Shown here: piece by piece, positions 5,767-56,923 of the stretch
How the letters are laid out: every line of letters starts with the position of its first letter
Position numbering within the stretch: position 1 is the stretch's first letter
DNA from: Roseburia sp. 831b
Lineage (GTDB): Bacteria > Bacillota > Clostridia > Lachnospirales > Lachnospiraceae
Assembly (NCBI RefSeq): GCF_001940165.2
Contig: NZ_CP135162.1
Location: forward strand, 2,290,001-2,354,000
DNA: 64,000 nt
Direction of reading: 5' to 3'
The notes under the pieces: generated by a model
Databases searched by the model: none
The model's input: the letters and a program-made list of their open reading frames with translations, nothing else
Told to the model about the DNA's origin: nothing
Position numbers and translations under genes: made by a program

Positions 5767-5826
5767 ATCTCTTTTCACTTCAACAAGCCTTTGTAACTCT
5801 CACTCTGTTACATTCAGCTCTTAGCT

Positions 5827-6032
5827 ACTTCTTCTCTCATCCAGACTATACTGTCGGTTCCGGATTCTCACCGGATCAATCGTTTGCACGACTCACGGAC
5901 TTGCTAAGGAACACCGGAAAGCCACCTTGTGCCTTCCTGTCTTCTAGCTATCACCGTCGGTCGGGAATCTGTCGGATTGCAATTCAACTACAATTGTTAT
6001 TGCATCTTCCATCACCCTGCCCCGAAGAAACT
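5827..6032 (-). promoter_or_regulatory. FMN riboswitch (RFN element)
   Basis: Read on the minus strand, the RFN consensus blocks appear in order: CTTCGGGGCAGGGTGA near 6028, CCCGACCGACGGTGATAG near 5960, an accessory helix around 5900-5945, GTGAGAATCCGGAACCGACA near 5870 and GTATAGTCTGGATGAGAGAA near 5835. This is the complete FMN aptamer. It sits 170 bp upstream of ribU with a terminator between, so FMN binding should stop transcription. Confidence 0.96.
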
Positions 6033-6075
6033 CTATATTCATTTTCTATTTTTACATAATATTTTATGCACTTAC

Positions 6076-48234: not shown

Positions 48235-48273
48235 TTATTGAAAACACGGGGTTGCCCGAAAGGAGTCTCACAA

Positions 48274-49071
48274 ATGAAACAGACCATTACCATCAAAGAT
48301 GTTGCCCGCGAAGCAGGTGTTTCCGTTGCCACTGTATCCTACGTGATTAACAATCGCACGGACAAACGAATCAGCGAAAAAACAAGAAAAAAAGTGCTTC
48401 AGGTCATCAATCTGTTGGATTACACGCCAAACCAGTCTGCAAAAGCACTGGCGACAAACCGTAATCAGATGATTGCGCTTTATCTTTCCACTGAGGATTC
48501 TCCTTTAAAAAATGCAGAACAGTCTTACTTTTTGCATTTTCTTGTTTCTTATTTTCATGAAAAAAATTACGATCTTATTTGTTTAAATGAATCCTATACC
48601 GAAAAGTTTGACCATGCAGATGCTATTATCTGTTATGACATTTCTTCTGAACTTTTTCATCAGATTGGTGATAGTAACTTCATTCCACTGGTTGCCTTTG
48701 ATTGTATGATTCATGACCCGCTGTTTTTCCAGATTAATTCTAACTACAAATGTATTTTGGAAAAAGCGGATACTTTCTTTTCCGGTAAGCCTTACACGCT
48801 TGTATTGCTGGATACGAAGAACCAGGAGAAAAAAGATTACCTTGCCACGCTCCATTCTGATATTCGGTATGTGAACGACTTTTCAGAGGTTTTAGATTTG
48901 GAAGAGGAAAATATCGTTGTCGTCGACCATACGTTGTACCAGTTGTTAGAGACGTCACATCATACACTTTATGTTCCTGCCATCACAACGGAAAAAGCGG
49001 ATGCATTGCTTACCTGTCTGGAATATGCATTGCAGCGTACTCCAATCCAGCAACACGACATCTTAATCTAG
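48274..49071 (+). CDS. LacI-family regulator of the maltodextrin genes (short effector domain)
   Basis: A 265-residue LacI-family protein; the ATG follows AGGAG at 48274. The HTH reads TIKDVAREAGVSVATVSYVINNR and the hinge helix LDYTPNQSAKALATNR. The effector-binding part is about 60-70 residues shorter than the usual 330-340-residue family and lacks the final conserved repeats, so ligand binding may differ. It is divergent from the GH13_20-malE-malFG-amylase operon and probably represses it and itself through TTAAACG-type operators. Confidence 0.88.
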   Translation: MKQTITIKDVAREAGVSVATVSYVINNRTDKRISEKTRKKVLQVINLLDYTPNQSAKALATNRNQMIALYLSTEDSPLKNAEQSYFLHFLVSYFHEKNYDLICLNESYTEKFDHADAIICYDISSELFHQIGDSNFIPLVAFDCMIHDPLFFQINSNYKCILEKADTFFSGKPYTLVLLDTKNQEKKDYLATLHSDIRYVNDFSEVLDLEEENIVVVDHTLYQLLETSHHTLYVPAITTEKADALLTCLEYALQRTPIQQHDILI

Positions 49072-49110: not shown

Positions 49111-49217
49111 GACTCGGGTGCCAAGAGGCAGCTTACAGTTTTCTTACTGGAAAATTACACAATGTCAAGTCTATTTTGTTCCGATGAGTGAACATAAGAA
49201 AAATCTAGGTATGCCTG
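49111..49217 (+). repeat. Inverted repeat copy A bounding the 49-53 kb segment
   Basis: A 107-bp segment that matches the reverse complement of 52921-53027 at 96 of 107 positions with no gaps. The sequence to its right (49218-49285) is a decayed version of the other arm of the palindromic element seen complete at 52838-53028. It starts just after the lacI terminator. Confidence 0.85.
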
Positions 49218-49271: not shown

Positions 49272-50444
49272 TTACTTACAAGCCACCGTTAAGACCTGTG
49301 TGGACGGATCGTAGGTAAAGGTGTAAGTACCTGCCTGATTTGCAACGAGGTTGCCACCCTCTTTTCCGGTTACATAGGACAAGCTTTCTGTGTCATCTTT
49401 TGCAATATTGGTGTAACGGATGTACTCTGTTCCGACACTACTTGTATCTCCTACTGTTACCATGGAAGTGAACATGAATTCATCCCCTTCTTCTAGGTCA
49501 ACGGTCAGGGTATAACTTCCATCTTCCTCTACAAATTTCGTCTCGTCTGTGTATACGTCTTCCCAATTTGTGATTTTGGCACCCTTGATGTAGTAATCTA
49601 CCTGTTTTTCTTCTCCTGCTGACTCACTTTCTCCGTTATAAGTCCAGTCGATGGTATCATACATGTTGATGTTGAATGCTTCCTTATTGTCCTCGCTGTA
49701 ATCGGCTGCATCCTCTTCATAAATATCTTCACCTGGATAGGTTGTTAACGTGAAGGTATAATTGCCGGCAACAAGGCACTTGATATTTGCTCTTTTTGTG
49801 CTTGCATCCCCAAGACTGCCGGAATTCTGGAAATAATCTGTTCCATCTTTGGAAAAAGCGGTCAGATAACCGCATCCTCTTTGATCATTCCAGGAAGAAT
49901 TGATGGCAAACTGGAACTCATCGCCAGCTTCTAAGTCTAATGTAATCGTGTATACATTGGCATCCAGGTTATCCTCTTTGGTCATTGTCTGTGCATCCCC
50001 AATCACAGCTCCCCAGTTTGACTCTAATAACACCGGACTTGTTCCACTTCCTACAATTGCAAAACTTCTGGTGTCTTCCTGATAGGAAACAAACCCTGCA
50101 AAGACCTCCGTATCTGCTGTAATTGCTGTTGTAAAGTCAAATTTATGACTCATCTGTGGTGTTGCAAACCAGCCTGCAAACGTATAACCTTCTTTTTCTG
50201 GCACATATTCGTCTACACAAGTTCCATCTTCAACCTCTTTTGTCTCTAAGACGGTCTTTCCGTCTGCATCATAAAAAGTGACAACATGGGTAGAAGCTGC
50301 CTGATCCTGTGTCTCAGTCACGGCCTGCTCGGTTGACGTTACATCCGTCTCTTCCTCCTTCGACTGACATCCTGTTAACATTGAAATACTCATTGAAGCA
50401 ACTAATGTTATGGCTGCAATCCACTTTAATCCTTTTCTTTTCAT
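49272..50444 (-). CDS. Surface lipoprotein with InlB-type repeat and starch-binding-like modules
   Basis: A 390-residue lipoprotein with lipobox LTGC (C26). After a Thr/Glu/Gln-rich linker comes one InlB/Listeria-Bacteroides repeat (VTFYDADGKTVLETKEVEDG to AGWFATP, about 53-118). Two beta-sandwich modules follow, each with an L(D/E)xGDEFxF motif (ITLDLEAGDEFQFAINSSWND and LTVDLEEGDEFMFTS), similar to CBM26/SusE-like starch-binding modules. It ends with a short strand repeat. LacI-type operators in its promoter tie it to the maltodextrin genes. Starch binding is inferred. Confidence 0.75.
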   Translation of the reverse strand: MKRKGLKWIAAITLVASMSISMLTGCQSKEEETDVTSTEQAVTETQDQAASTHVVTFYDADGKTVLETKEVEDGTCVDEYVPEKEGYTFAGWFATPQMSHKFDFTTAITADTEVFAGFVSYQEDTRSFAIVGSGTSPVLLESNWGAVIGDAQTMTKEDNLDANVYTITLDLEAGDEFQFAINSSWNDQRGCGYLTAFSKDGTDYFQNSGSLGDASTKRANIKCLVAGNYTFTLTTYPGEDIYEEDAADYSEDNKEAFNINMYDTIDWTYNGESESAGEEKQVDYYIKGAKITNWEDVYTDETKFVEEDGSYTLTVDLEEGDEFMFTSMVTVGDTSSVGTEYIRYTNIAKDDTESLSYVTGKEGGNLVANQAGTYTFTYDPSTQVLTVACK

Positions 50445-50643: not shown

Positions 50644-50695
50644 GCTTAAACGATTAACTTAATTTTAATGTAACACTTCATACAGTTCCTGTCAA
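50644..50695 (-). promoter_or_regulatory. Promoter of the starch-binding-type lipoprotein with LacI-type operator
   Basis: On the minus strand: TTGACA (50690-50695), a 17-bp spacer and TACATT (50667-50672), then the operator core TTAATCGTTTAA (complement of TTAAACGATTAA, within 50644-50658) at about +2 to +16. This is the same operator-to-promoter geometry as at lacI. Confidence 0.7.
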
Positions 50696-50792
50696 GCATA
50701 AAAAATATCACTTTTTTCTTCACTTTTGACATGTATCTTCCTGTGCTTCTTCTTTATACTAAACTCAATAAATACCAAGGAGGAACTTACAA

Positions 50793-51011
50793 ATGAAAAA
50801 TTTATTTCCAAACGCAGCCAGATACCATTTTTTCCGTAAAAGAAAAAAGACAGCCTTTTTCCTGCTGCTTCTTTTCGGTCTATACCTTTGCAACAGTTCG
50901 GGATGTCTTTTTACGATAACTTCACAAAGTGCAGTTTCTAGTGCGCAAAGTGAATCTCCATCTCTGGATCAATTTCAGCGTGGAATTGTTCCAGGTAAAA
51001 TGCCTGGATAA
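50793..51011 (+). CDS. Small signal-peptide-bearing ORF, candidate pheromone precursor
   Basis: A 72-residue ORF preceded by a strong AAGGAGG site nine bases before the ATG. Residues 1-19 are basic (RKRKK), 20-35 are strongly hydrophobic (TAFFLLLLFGLYL), and the rest is a short polar tail ending RGIVPGKMPG. This is the layout of RRNPP pre-peptides. It is convergent with the downstream HTH regulator and its last 74 bp are antisense to that gene's 3' end. It could instead be a fortuitous ORF; no good promoter was found (a TTGACA at 50726 is 23 bp from a TATACT). Confidence 0.5.
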   Translation: MKNLFPNAARYHFFRKRKKTAFFLLLLFGLYLCNSSGCLFTITSQSAVSSAQSESPSLDQFQRGIVPGKMPG

Positions 51012-51900
51012 TTTTTTTCTCTTTTTCCTTCTTTCCTGCCTGTGCAAGATAGAAGGCAAGTTTTAAATACGCCTTGCAATCTTCCAATTCCGATTCATCT
51101 CTTTTTCCAGATTTAATCAGTTCCAGAAGGTTCCAGGATGCTTCAAGTAGAATGGTAGGGAAAAACACTTCATACTGACACTTCTTTGCCTCTTCTAAAT
51201 TATTGGCACAAAGCGTCAGTGCTTCTTGATGCTTTCCAAGCATTCCAAGCATTTTGGCACGGTTACAATTGATTAAAATCCGCCATTCCATTGCACTTCG
51301 TGCGTCTAAATATTCTTTTTCCAGGGAGCGGAGCATCATTTCCAGAATCTGTATGCCGCGTGATACTTCGCCCCTTTCTTTATAAGCAATTGCAAGGCTT
51401 AAAAGCGTATCCAATTCCTGTTCTGTGAATGGATACGTCTTTTTTATGTAAACCCTATAATCTGGAATCGTTAATTGTATGTTTTTTTCTAATTTTTCAA
51501 CAAATTCAGTCACTTTTATTCTGCCACCGCAATACTCAACCACGGCCTGCTGCTTTCCAAGATATTGCCTGCTCACAATACTTTTTCCAATTTTGCTTTC
51601 AAAACGTCTTAAATGCACTTTTGCGCGTGAAAAATCATGTTTTCGAAGGCTTGCCTCTAACTTTTCCCGCTCCTCAAAAAGTTCTAACTGTCTGCCGGAA
51701 AACACTGCATACATTTTATGTGGATAGCGGTTCATCCTTTGCATGAGCTGTTCGTAAACTTCACGTTTTACCTTATGTTTTCCATTTTCAATCCTAGAAA
51801 GCGTCCGCGGTTCGCAGATATTTTCGCAAAGCTCCTCCTGTGTCATATTGCAGGCAATTCTGGATAGTCGAATGATATCACCGGAACAATAACACGACAT
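50938..51900 (-). CDS. XRE-family HTH regulator with C-terminal helical (TPR-like) repeats
   Basis: A 320-residue protein starting MSCYCSGDIIRLSRIACN at 51900, with GGGAGG upstream. The XRE HTH is residues about 8-65 (MTQEELCENICEPRTLSRIENGKHKV). The remaining 250 residues are all-helical pairs (TLLSLAIAYKERGEVSRGIQILEMML, CNRAKMLGMLGKHQEALTLCANNL), as in RRNPP regulators (Rgg, PlcR, PrgX) that bind imported peptides. It overlaps the previous gene by 58 bp and converges on the small ORF at 50793-51011. Peptide sensing is inferred from architecture and context. Confidence 0.82.
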   Translation of the reverse strand: MSCYCSGDIIRLSRIACNMTQEELCENICEPRTLSRIENGKHKVKREVYEQLMQRMNRYPHKMYAVFSGRQLELFEEREKLEASLRKHDFSRAKVHLRRFESKIGKSIVSRQYLGKQQAVVEYCGGRIKVTEFVEKLEKNIQLTIPDYRVYIKKTYPFTEQELDTLLSLAIAYKERGEVSRGIQILEMMLRSLEKEYLDARSAMEWRILINCNRAKMLGMLGKHQEALTLCANNLEEAKKCQYEVFFPTILLEASWNLLELIKSGKRDESELEDCKAYLKLAFYLAQAGKKEKEKKIIQAFYLEQFHAEIDPEMEIHFAH

Positions 51901-52811
51901 GGCTCTTCCTCCCTTCCCACATAACGGTGTAAGGGACTTTCTTCTTTTGTGCAAACCAGATAAATTGCCTGTGCCATCGCCATACACTGTTGCGCTTCTT
52001 TTCTTTTTTCATTCCACTGTCTGCTGCCTTCATATTGTTTCTTAAGGCAGTCAGCCTTTTTTTCATACAGCATTGCCAACGGGAAAAGGTATGCCGTCTC
52101 TTGATAAATTTCGATGGTTTTCTCCAGATAAACAATGGTCTCCTCCCACAGCATCCTTTGCATTGTAATCTGAATCAGCGCCTCATAAACTGGCACCTCA
52201 TATGTTTCCCTCTGTCTCCCTTTTGCAAACAATTTCACATATTGCAATATGTGGCGTAACTTCTTTTTGGCAAAAGAGAAATCTTCCACCGCAAGATAAC
52301 GGAAACGGCAGCAAATTAACACCAGTTCCTGTTTGCTATACAACGCCCCTGGCGCATCCCCTCTGGTGCAAAGCAATGCCTCCATCGTTTTCTCCAATAA
52401 CAGCGGTAGGGAGGCACCCCTTTTTTCCAACAATAAAATCTCGTAAACACGGCAGAATTGCTGATGTACCTTTTGTTCTTTTGGCATAATATTTCTGTAT
52501 TGTTTTAATAATTGTTCTAATTCTGATTGTTTGTCCAATTCTGACAATTTATGTGCAACGCACTGCTCTATTTTTTGTCTTAACTGCCACTGCTTATAAT
52601 CTTTTGCATTGAGCATCATCTCAAACTGGTTCACTTCTTTTCCAATTCGCGACAACAACATCTGGCAGGTCAGACTGTCCATCTCCCGGACACCGTCCTC
52701 TAGCAGATAAAAATTAGACGGCGAACAAATCCCCCCGCAGATTTGCATTGCCGACAGTTTATACTTTTTCCGGTAATAATGAAGTACCGTTCCAACTGTA
52801 TTCTGTTCCAT
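51843..52811 (-). CDS. Second HTH/helical-repeat regulator, tandem paralogue
   Basis: A 322-residue protein with the same plan as its neighbour: a divergent XRE-like N-terminus (VGTVLHYYRKKYKLSAMQICGGICSPSNFYLLEDGVREM) and a helical C-terminus (EALIQITMQRMLWEETIVYLEKTIEIYQ, LAMLYEKKADCLKKQY). The two proteins are only distantly similar. The gene is first in a two-gene operon and ends 58 bp inside the next gene, so the products are probably made together and may form hetero-oligomers. Confidence 0.78.
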   Translation of the reverse strand: MEQNTVGTVLHYYRKKYKLSAMQICGGICSPSNFYLLEDGVREMDSLTCQMLLSRIGKEVNQFEMMLNAKDYKQWQLRQKIEQCVAHKLSELDKQSELEQLLKQYRNIMPKEQKVHQQFCRVYEILLLEKRGASLPLLLEKTMEALLCTRGDAPGALYSKQELVLICCRFRYLAVEDFSFAKKKLRHILQYVKLFAKGRQRETYEVPVYEALIQITMQRMLWEETIVYLEKTIEIYQETAYLFPLAMLYEKKADCLKKQYEGSRQWNEKRKEAQQCMAMAQAIYLVCTKEESPLHRYVGREEEPCRVIVPVISFDYPELPAI

Positions 52812-52837: not shown

Positions 52838-53028
52838 GATTCGAATGTCAAAAGGTTGCTCACAAATTAGTTATTGGCAAATTGCACAAAGACAAGACTA
52901 TTTTTGTGACTTTGAGGAAACAGGCATACTTAGATTTTTCTTATGTTCGCTCATCGGAACAAAATTGGCTTGTCATTGTGTAATTTGCCAGTAAGAAAAC
53001 TGTAAGCAACCTTTTGACACCCGAATCC
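52838..53028. repeat. 191-bp palindromic element (copy B)
   Basis: A near-perfect giant inverted repeat. The ends GATTCGAATGTCAAAAGG and the complement GATTCGGGTGTCAAAAGG match over 24 bases with three mismatches, and the arms stay about 75-80% complementary to the centre near 52920. Its right arm (52921-53027) is the 107-bp inverted partner of 49111-49217. No ORF is inside. It resembles a MITE or large hairpin repeat and occupies most of the 336-bp gap 52812-53147. Confidence 0.8.
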
Positions 53029-55663: not shown

Positions 55664-56923
55664 TTGTCGTTTAAAATTCTCAAAAATAACTGTTGTGGTC
55701 TTGACGTCCACAAAACCTGGATCTATGCCTGTATCGGCATAACTGATTCCCTGAAACGTACCGAGTATAAAGAAGCCCGCTTTTCTTCCTTTACCAAAGG
55801 TCTGCAGGAGCTGTGTGACTGGCTTTCCAAATACAACTGTACGGATGTCTGCATGGAATCTACCGGTAAGTACTGGATCCCTGTTTTTAATGTTCTGGAG
55901 AAGAATAACATCTGGGTTACTCTTTCCCACCCCAAATATACCAAACCGCAAAAAGGCAACAAGACTGACCGCAAGGATGCTAAATGGATTTGTGACCTAT
56001 ATATGTGTGGAATGGTAAAACCTTCCTTTATTCCACCGGCTGACATCCGTGAATTAAGAGATTTAGTAAGATACCGTTTCAAACTCACTTGTATGATCAC
56101 CGGTGAGAAGAATCGTGCTCATAACTGTCTTACTGTTTCTAACTTAAAACTGGATGATGTCTTTTCTGATATATTTGGTAAATCCTCCCGTTCCATTACG
56201 GAACAGATTTTACAACACCCTGGGGAAACATTTGATGTGTCACCTTTTGTGGATAGCAGATGTAAGACTCCTACCGAAGAAATACAAGCTGCTGTTGATG
56301 GTGCCATATCCAAACAACAAGCTGTAAAGCTCAGACAATGTTTAAATCACATTGATGAATTAGAAATGCACAAAGTAGAAATAGAACGGGAAATCTTTCG
56401 TCTCAGTGATAAGTATGAAAGCATTCTCAATCTTATACGAACCGTACCTGGATTCGATAAGACCCCAATGACTGCTATTCAGGTGCTTTCTGAAATCGGA
56501 GGTGATATGTCTGTCTTCCCCACAGCTAAAAACCTCATATCATGGGCTGGATGTTGTCCCCGTAATGATCAAAGCAATCATAAAATCAAATCCACTAGGA
56601 TTTCCCGTGCTGGTTCTTATTTTAAACCAGTTTTGGTGCAAGTTGCAAATGCTTTAATCAAATCCAAGAAACACCCAGAATTTACAAACCGTTATCGACG
56701 TATAAAAGCACGTCGTGGTCACAAGAAAGCTATCATTGCCATCTGTCGTATGATCCTGACCGCTATCTGGCACATACTCACAGATCTAAAACCATATACG
56801 CCTGAAGGTTTTCTTGAATCGCGACCTGTGAATAAATCCAAAGTATTGACTACTTCACAGGCACTTAATTTAATGAAGCAGCGAGGCTACATTATCAAAG
56901 ATGATGTTGTTCCTGTTACCTGA
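55664..56923 (+). CDS. IS110-family DEDD transposase/recombinase
   Basis: A 419-residue recombinase starting at a TTG, eight bases after GGAGG. The N-terminal RuvC-like domain has D14 (CGLDVHKTW), E65 (CMESTGKYW), D102 and D105 (KTDRKDAKW), the complete DEDD set. After a coiled-coil segment (about 215-255) the C-terminal Tnp20 domain has VPGFDKTPMTAIQVLSEIG and the conserved serine S304 in CCPRNDQSNHKIKSTRISRAGSYF. All catalytic residues are intact, so it may be active. Noncoding RNA upstream rather than downstream suggests the IS110 rather than the IS1111 group. Confidence 0.93.
   Translation: MSFKILKNNCCGLDVHKTWIYACIGITDSLKRTEYKEARFSSFTKGLQELCDWLSKYNCTDVCMESTGKYWIPVFNVLEKNNIWVTLSHPKYTKPQKGNKTDRKDAKWICDLYMCGMVKPSFIPPADIRELRDLVRYRFKLTCMITGEKNRAHNCLTVSNLKLDDVFSDIFGKSSRSITEQILQHPGETFDVSPFVDSRCKTPTEEIQAAVDGAISKQQAVKLRQCLNHIDELEMHKVEIEREIFRLSDKYESILNLIRTVPGFDKTPMTAIQVLSEIGGDMSVFPTAKNLISWAGCCPRNDQSNHKIKSTRISRAGSYFKPVLVQVANALIKSKKHPEFTNRYRRIKARRGHKKAIIAICRMILTAIWHILTDLKPYTPEGFLESRPVNKSKVLTTSQALNLMKQRGYIIKDDVVPVT

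Follow-up and report, generated by a model that had tools for sequence, protein, structure and literature searches.

A probable PlcR-like peptide-sensing module with two receptor genes and a convergent peptide gene in Roseburia

Background

Do two overlapping regulator genes and a small convergent open reading frame (ORF) in the genome of Roseburia sp. 831b form a peptide signalling system of the RRNPP type, and if so, of which kind? The question was raised by an initial annotation of a 64,000-nucleotide window (the whole stretch of DNA analysed here), which took the locus for a peptide-receptor system, unusual in having two regulators and lying beside starch genes within a segment bounded by an inverted repeat. 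Here we describe the regulators (reg1 and reg2), the small ORF and the region upstream of it, and compare them with related loci, denoted by L and a number.

Results

Anatomy of the locus

The claimed gene layout was confirmed in the sequence in every part: two overlapping regulator genes, both on the minus strand and sharing 58 bp, and a convergent 72-codon ORF with an AAGGAGG site and a basic, then hydrophobic N-terminus, overlapping reg2 by 74 bp (Table 1). The inverted repeat, on the other hand, had to be rejected as part of the system: it is a dispersed, MITE-like element with 93 matching pieces in the genome. One copy, beginning 27 bp upstream of reg1, may be the source of the promoter of this gene.

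Table 1. Positions of features in the window and in related loci
Feature	Sequence	Position	Strand	Remarks
Pre-pheromone-like ORF, 72 codons	window	50793..51011	+	ATG start; N-terminus basic, followed by a hydrophobic segment and a polar tail that ends in QRGIVPGKMPG
reg2, HTH + TPR-like receptor, 320 aa	window	50938..51900	-	PlcR-like; HTH_3, predicted fold
reg1, paralogous partner receptor, 322 aa	window	51843..52811	-	hhalign to reg2 family; HTH motif degenerate in this genome
Ribosome-binding site AAGGAGG of small ORF	window	50777..50783	+	sequence; 9 nt from ATG
-10 box TATACT of peptide gene	window	50755..50760	+	27 bp after GACATG
Operator right half-site	window	50716..50739	+	matrix from 8 relatives
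Candidate operator left half-site, degenerate	window	50682..50705	-	core TGTCAA 50690-50695; 15/24 positions as in consensus, counted by eye
Mirrored -10-like box TAAAAT, toward gene X	window	50662..50667	-	43 bp from operator pseudo-centre, hand count
LacI-type box TTAAACGATTAA	window	50646..50657	+	between mirrored -10 and gene X
Second exact-pattern copy of LacI-type box	window	50500-50511		
Gene X, List_Bact_rpt protein of starch locus	window	49272..50444	-	divergent neighbour; Pfam PF09479, 7.6e-10
LacI-family gene	window	48238-49071		
Dispersed MITE-like element	window	52838-53027 and 49111-49217		67-nt arms, 82% complementary; latter copy at genome 2339111-2339217
FMN riboswitch	window	5825-6033	-	Rfam RF00050, 90.5 bits
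419-aa ORF	window	55664-56923	+	presumably IS110-type transposase
Second module, convergent ORF	L102	3436-3588	+	same genome, 2010435-2011498
Second module, receptor	L102	3585-4499	-	same genome, 2010435-2011498
Fused-type receptor, apparently broken	L103	3447-5045		same genome
Module of the same kind	L148	6001-7019		MAG labelled Anaerolineaceae
reg2 beside repeat-bearing propeptide	L145	6001-6939		Mobilitalea sibirica
Precursor-like ORF, LAGG and Cys-containing tail	L106	5742-5888	-	adjoins radical-SAM-like gene; Roseburia
Precursor-like ORF, LAGG and Cys-containing tail	L109	4444-4593	-	adjoins radical-SAM-like gene; Roseburia

A PlcR-like receptor and its paralogous partner

In Pfam, reg2 has an HTH_3 match above the cut-off (2.7e-6); its TPR matches are weak and below cut-off (best E 0.032), and RNPP_C is absent from its matches at E<=1. 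The same family (PF18768) is precomputed on several homologues and scores below cut-off in the relative L107. The AF2 model of reg2 (pLDDT 92.5) has as its best solved match in Foldseek PlcR in complex with PapR7 and DNA (E 3.9e-8). PlcR is also ranked first by VIA-align and is the best hit of a PDB sequence search (1.9e-4). Structure prediction, suggested earlier as a check on the helical-repeat C-domain, thus supports it for reg2, and the predicted fold, including the HTH, is that of the PlcR/PapR subfamily. The database cluster containing reg2 has 46 members; relatives at 69% and 47% identity retain a C-terminal extension of similar length, as judged from protein sequences only.

An XRE-like N-terminus had been claimed for both regulators. 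The claim stands for reg2; reg1 itself has no HTH or TPR match in Pfam at E<=1, though an HTH-like motif is visible in the alignment of its orthologues. When three reg1 relatives were scanned for HTH_3, one scored just above the cut-off, one just below, and the third had no match at E<=0.01. Over their full length reg1 and reg2 are homologous (hhalign of two 11-sequence alignments: 99.7%, E 2.1e-26). Their recognition stretches share 5 of 14 residues here and 6-11 of 14 in ten relatives, and the HTH of reg1 is degenerate in this genome.

Related receptors and their convergent ORFs

Relatives were found in 30 of 62 genomes of the genus and 51 of 397 genomes of a family sample (both at 1e-5), and in 9 of 391 genomes of a class sample at 1e-10, the window's genome being included each time. 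Roseburia, Blautia, Faecalibacterium and Herbinix are among the genera concerned. A contig scan with a single protein gave no match; an alignment query gave 104 relatives, of which the best 80 were kept. Altogether, 226 distinct receptors in 205 sequences were scanned; 17 were excluded for having no stop or less than 450 bp downstream, and 154 terminal and 55 non-terminal receptors were used. An ORF of 28-110 codons was counted if it began with ATG behind a ribosome-binding site, carried a net positive charge ahead of a hydrophobic 12-mer, and lay on the opposite strand with its end within -120 to +60 bp of the receptor 3' end.

Such convergent, signal-peptide-like ORFs are present at 83/154 terminal receptors, the window ORF among them, compared with 3/537 control ORFs (other long ORFs of the same loci); by this strict test 71/154 have none. 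Codirectional and divergent settings gave 1/154 and 2/154, non-terminal receptors 0/55. With the pilot loci (7/10 terminal receptors positive) excluded, 76/144 have the ORF (Fisher 4.6e-56, a value that ignores kinship). When receptors are clustered at 50% identity, convergent ORFs occur in 59 of 106 clusters. The commonest overlap is exactly 4 bp (34 of the 83 modules).

Contrary to what had been supposed, a second regulator is nothing out of the ordinary in this family: 56/154 terminal receptors are fused double chains (at least 540 residues), 45/154 form tandem pairs, and 53 are single, that is, with no second receptor in the DNA examined. The ORF test was passed by 35/56 fused, 28/45 tandem and 20/53 single receptors. 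Many matches are ORFs of about 600-680 residues, whose first half is best matched by reg1 and second half by reg2. The fused protein of Acetivibrio ethanolgignens (L197) was modelled with pLDDT 92.6 and pTM 0.91, and its best match is again PlcR (7.0e-8). This fixed order, together with the fusion, suggests that reg1 and reg2 act together.

The genome of the window carries a second module, in which a single receptor is accompanied by a convergent 50-aa ORF with a 4-bp overlap and by a palindromic operator, as well as a fused-type receptor apparently broken by one in-frame stop (L103). The module in the MAG labelled Anaerolineaceae (L148) may reflect transfer or misbinning.

The peptide ORF

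The initial annotation had proposed conservation of the small ORF in relatives as a check. The position and kind of the ORF are conserved, as the survey counts show. For its own sequence, a search depending on shared exact 5-residue words matched one 93%-identity database cluster only, with 20 member sequences on 23 contigs. Among pairs of related peptide ORFs, which are not independent, 12/14 give a finite dN/dS of 0.11-0.55, which fits translated ORFs.

Some tail motifs recur. In 80 tails, with near-duplicates removed, I-x-P was found 33 times (shuffle mean 16.2, maximum 24) and P..D 39 times (mean 19.9, maximum 28). The window tail reads G-I-V-P where its database relative (20 members) has G-I-L-P; I-x-P is present, and the following acidic residue is missing. 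Tails of several relatives contain D-L-P, and the Mobilitalea sibirica propeptide (L145) contains NDLPP(V/T)ESY three times, internal repeats that resemble multi-copy pheromone precursors.

Operator and promoter

Upstream of the peptide ORF, a palindrome scoring at least 12 was found in 49/83 modules and in 0/1660 approximate dinucleotide shuffles (tandem 23/28, fused 17/35, single 9/20); in Roseburia its arm reads like GACCATGTCAAAACTGGAAAA. Its centre lies 40-48 bp before a -10-like box in 38/49 cases; equal scores were settled in favour of 45 bp, a rule that promotes the observed clustering. At these palindromic promoters a -35 box at 17 bp has 0-4 of 6 matches, and the promoter looks activator-dependent. 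The -10 box is enriched on either side of the palindrome, with 35 of 49 and 32 of 49 against an expected 16.6; as this expectation comes from the peptide-side shuffle in both cases, the mirrored figure is approximate.

In the window, the right half-site ranks second of 127,954 positions with the matrix from eight relatives, and 0.4% of random 197-nt window stretches score as well. For the left half-site the proportion is 8.6% of random 77-nt stretches; alone it is not significant. A -10-like box at 27 bp occurs in five of the eight relatives (L105, L106, L107, L131 and L109, the last a 4-of-6 tie); L136 and L191 were improperly anchored by the spacing script, and L108 reads 26 with a shifted anchor. 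The window thus retains one half-site and the -10 spacing, and its left half-site and reg1 HTH have diverged; this copy may accordingly be altered or decaying.

Across 63 loci, the window included, reg1 HTH integrity seems to track palindrome strength (Spearman 0.39, p 0.0015), a correlation that is suggestive only, as it ignores kinship and uses a C-unit scan that is crude for fused chains. Besides the window site, the genome has only two half-sites with 3 mismatches (reversed control: 1 match), and no regulon is claimed. Three half-sites lie on one contig of G414, apparently within a repeated stretch with similar ORF fragments.

Neighbouring genes

Radical-SAM genes lie behind the palindrome in L106, L131 and L197 (Pfam, above cut-off) and, by NCBIfam matches below cut-offs, in L107; CxxxCxxC ORFs occupy this place in L109 and L079, by motif alone. 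NCBIfam matches to radical-SAM peptide maturases were all below the curated cut-offs, and no specific maturase family is claimed. Three of these loci (L106, L107 and L109) belong to Roseburia; L106 and L109 have in addition an ORF resembling a LAGG-type precursor, along with an ABC transporter (NCBIfam in L106, motif in L109). The radical-SAM-like motif was present in 6/33 modules with enough flank, compared with 1/30 on the other side. EAL or GGDEF-EAL genes adjoin the module in four relatives (L135, L143, L145 and L138), suggesting a link to cyclic-di-GMP. The remaining neighbours are of other, unrelated kinds, among them transporters of the ABC and MFS types, a peptidase and ORFs without match. 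As a general conserved output the divergent neighbour was rejected, its orientation not being enriched (53/77 divergent from the peptide gene, against 224/291 codirectional control pairs).

A motif scan of the window found no radical-SAM-like ORF or cluster; the neighbour there is gene X, a possible though unproven output of the module, and probably secreted, to read its N-terminus. The LacI-type box would be linked to the nearby LacI-family gene.

Discussion

We conclude, with a probability of roughly 0.82, that the window locus is a peptide-sensing module of the RRNPP type, similar to PlcR/PapR and working as outlined below. The PlcR-like fold of reg2 and the excess of convergent ORFs over controls both support the peptide-receptor reading of the initial annotation.

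The gene anatomy, the predicted fold of reg2, the conserved gene arrangement, the operator geometry in relatives and one half of the operator in the window are established directly. From them we infer export, processing and binding of a peptide, a receptor heterodimer, activation and an output. The 72-residue pre-pheromone would be exported by means of its signal-like N-terminus, cut to a short peptide from its C-terminal region (...QRGIVPGKMPG) and re-imported by an oligopeptide permease; the genome has three binding proteins of the peptide-permease type (SBP_bac_5, PF00496). The mature peptide would then be bound in the TPR groove of reg1, reg2 or both, these forming a heterodimer that in relatives is often one fused chain. 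The receptors would read the operator, whose centre lies some 44 bp before the -10 box of the peptide gene, and probably activate this gene in a positive feedback, perhaps together with the divergent gene on the other side.

A further-reaching proposal is made tentatively, with the odds somewhat against it. A subfamily of RRNPP systems in Clostridia might be defined by a receptor that is either an obligate heterodimer or a double receptor in a single chain, its two TPR grooves being non-equivalent. This receptor would read a palindrome acting in both directions, towards the pheromone gene on one side and towards an output operon on the other, the latter in some Roseburia a radical-SAM peptide cluster. 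The window copy would be derived: a DNA-reading head and an arm of the operator would have decayed jointly, and its output side would now face a LacI-controlled starch gene. Density and starch signals would then meet at one promoter.

It is rather unlikely that the module is a silent relic, descended from such signalling, which in this species has lost the symmetry of its operator, one of its DNA-reading heads and the output it once had, an account that overlaps with ours as to origin. The degenerate HTH of reg1, the weak left half-site, the overlap of 74 bp where 4 bp is commonest, the window's want of a radical-SAM-like ORF in the motif scan and the dispersed repeat upstream of reg1 would all fit decay; yet all three ORFs are open, the database clusters to which they belong hold 20 members for the small ORF and 46 for reg2, reg2 relatives keep a C-terminal extension of similar length, and the half-site with its -10 spacing is retained. 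Separate homodimers, with reg1 independent of reg2, would be compatible with peptide sensing and are suggested by apparent single receptors that have a peptide ORF of their own (20/53), nine of these 20 also with a palindrome; the overlap of the genes, their frequent fusion in the reg1-reg2 order and the shared recognition stretch make this arrangement unlikely.

The exported peptide could instead be a regulated, bacteriocin-like product, the receptors sensing another signal. Peptide genes are indeed highly variable and some modules adjoin modified-peptide clusters, but two such clusters (L106 and L109) have precursor-like ORFs of their own, and the receptor is of PlcR type with D-L-P tails in several relatives, so that we regard a product role as highly improbable. 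That the small ORF encodes a type I toxin-like membrane peptide, its mRNA antisense-controlled by the overlapping transcript, is hardly credible: the ORF is small and hydrophobic and the convergent genes overlap at their 3' ends, but the recurrent pairing with HTH-TPR receptors, the palindromic operator, the tail motif and repeats, and the polar, variable tails speak against it.

Under the peptide-sensing reading, several gut commensals and other Clostridia would use short peptides as signals, sensed by a kind of receptor probably overlooked by the published detector when run with its defaults. Fused double receptors and the tail-to-tail layout with its 4-bp overlap provide a simple search signature, and each module supplies its own candidate pheromone and operator. 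Fused chains could also act as natural single-chain models of the receptor dimer.

Comparison with known systems

RRNPP_detector (PMC10075063) by default takes receptors of 250-500 aa that have a TPR HMM match at 1e-5 and lie at a distance of -60 bp or more. By size, reg1 and reg2 fall within this range, and fused relatives of about 600 aa outside it; the TPR domain of reg2 is recognised by predicted fold and missed by HMM (0.032). The propeptide, sought as an adjacent ORF of 10-100 aa with a Sec signal, is adjacent and has 72 aa, its signal being judged from hydropathy and charge only. The intergenic distance of -74 bp lies outside the default range of -60 to 400 bp, which is a software search setting and no biological definition (reference systems: -50 to 191); 81 of the 83 modules are at -46 or higher. 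The defaults would thus probably exclude both fused receptors and the window copy.

In the open PMC literature searched, covering part of the RRNPP literature, we found no account of paired or fused tail-to-tail RRNPP systems and no paper on RRNPP and Lachnospiraceae together; Lachno-, Roseburia and Blautia are absent from the main text of PMC10075063. The layout suggests a kind of peptide communication between cells for which that literature gave no description. RRNPP systems are known in Clostridia, namely Qsr/Qsp of Clostridium acetobutylicum and QssR/QssP of C. saccharoperbutylacetonicum (PMC10075063); compared by description only, they share the class with our locus, and paired or fused receptors are not mentioned in the accessible text (PMC10075063).

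In Streptococcus pneumoniae, tprA2 lies on the strand opposite to its small peptide gene phrA2, beside a lanthionine-peptide cluster (PMC5436883); TprA2/PhrA2 resembles our modules in this opposite-strand peptide gene; both TprA/PhrA and TprA2/PhrA2 differ in having a single receptor. Rgg/SHP controls RaS-RiPP operons in streptococci, an RRNPP receptor standing beside radical-SAM peptide clusters (PMC13361665), and a similar adjacency is seen in L106, L107, L131 and L197, although SHPs are short hydrophobic peptides and the receptor is of another branch.

The D-L-P tails of several relatives resemble PapR7, which is ADLPFEF (PMC6568020). PlcR/PapR of the Bacillus cereus group shares with our locus the HTH and TPR receptor fold and an adjacent short pre-pheromone gene. 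There the peptide gene is codirectional with the receptor gene. In PlcR/PapR a sole receptor gene is directly followed by that of the pheromone (PMC9765709), a layout that the window lacks; here, in contrast, the receptor is encoded by two genes or fused into a double chain, the peptide gene is convergent and a long palindrome is present, in Clostridia. These three traits together make up an RRNPP variant with no description in the literature searched: RRNPP in kind and PlcR-like in fold, yet outside the PlcR/PapR layout.
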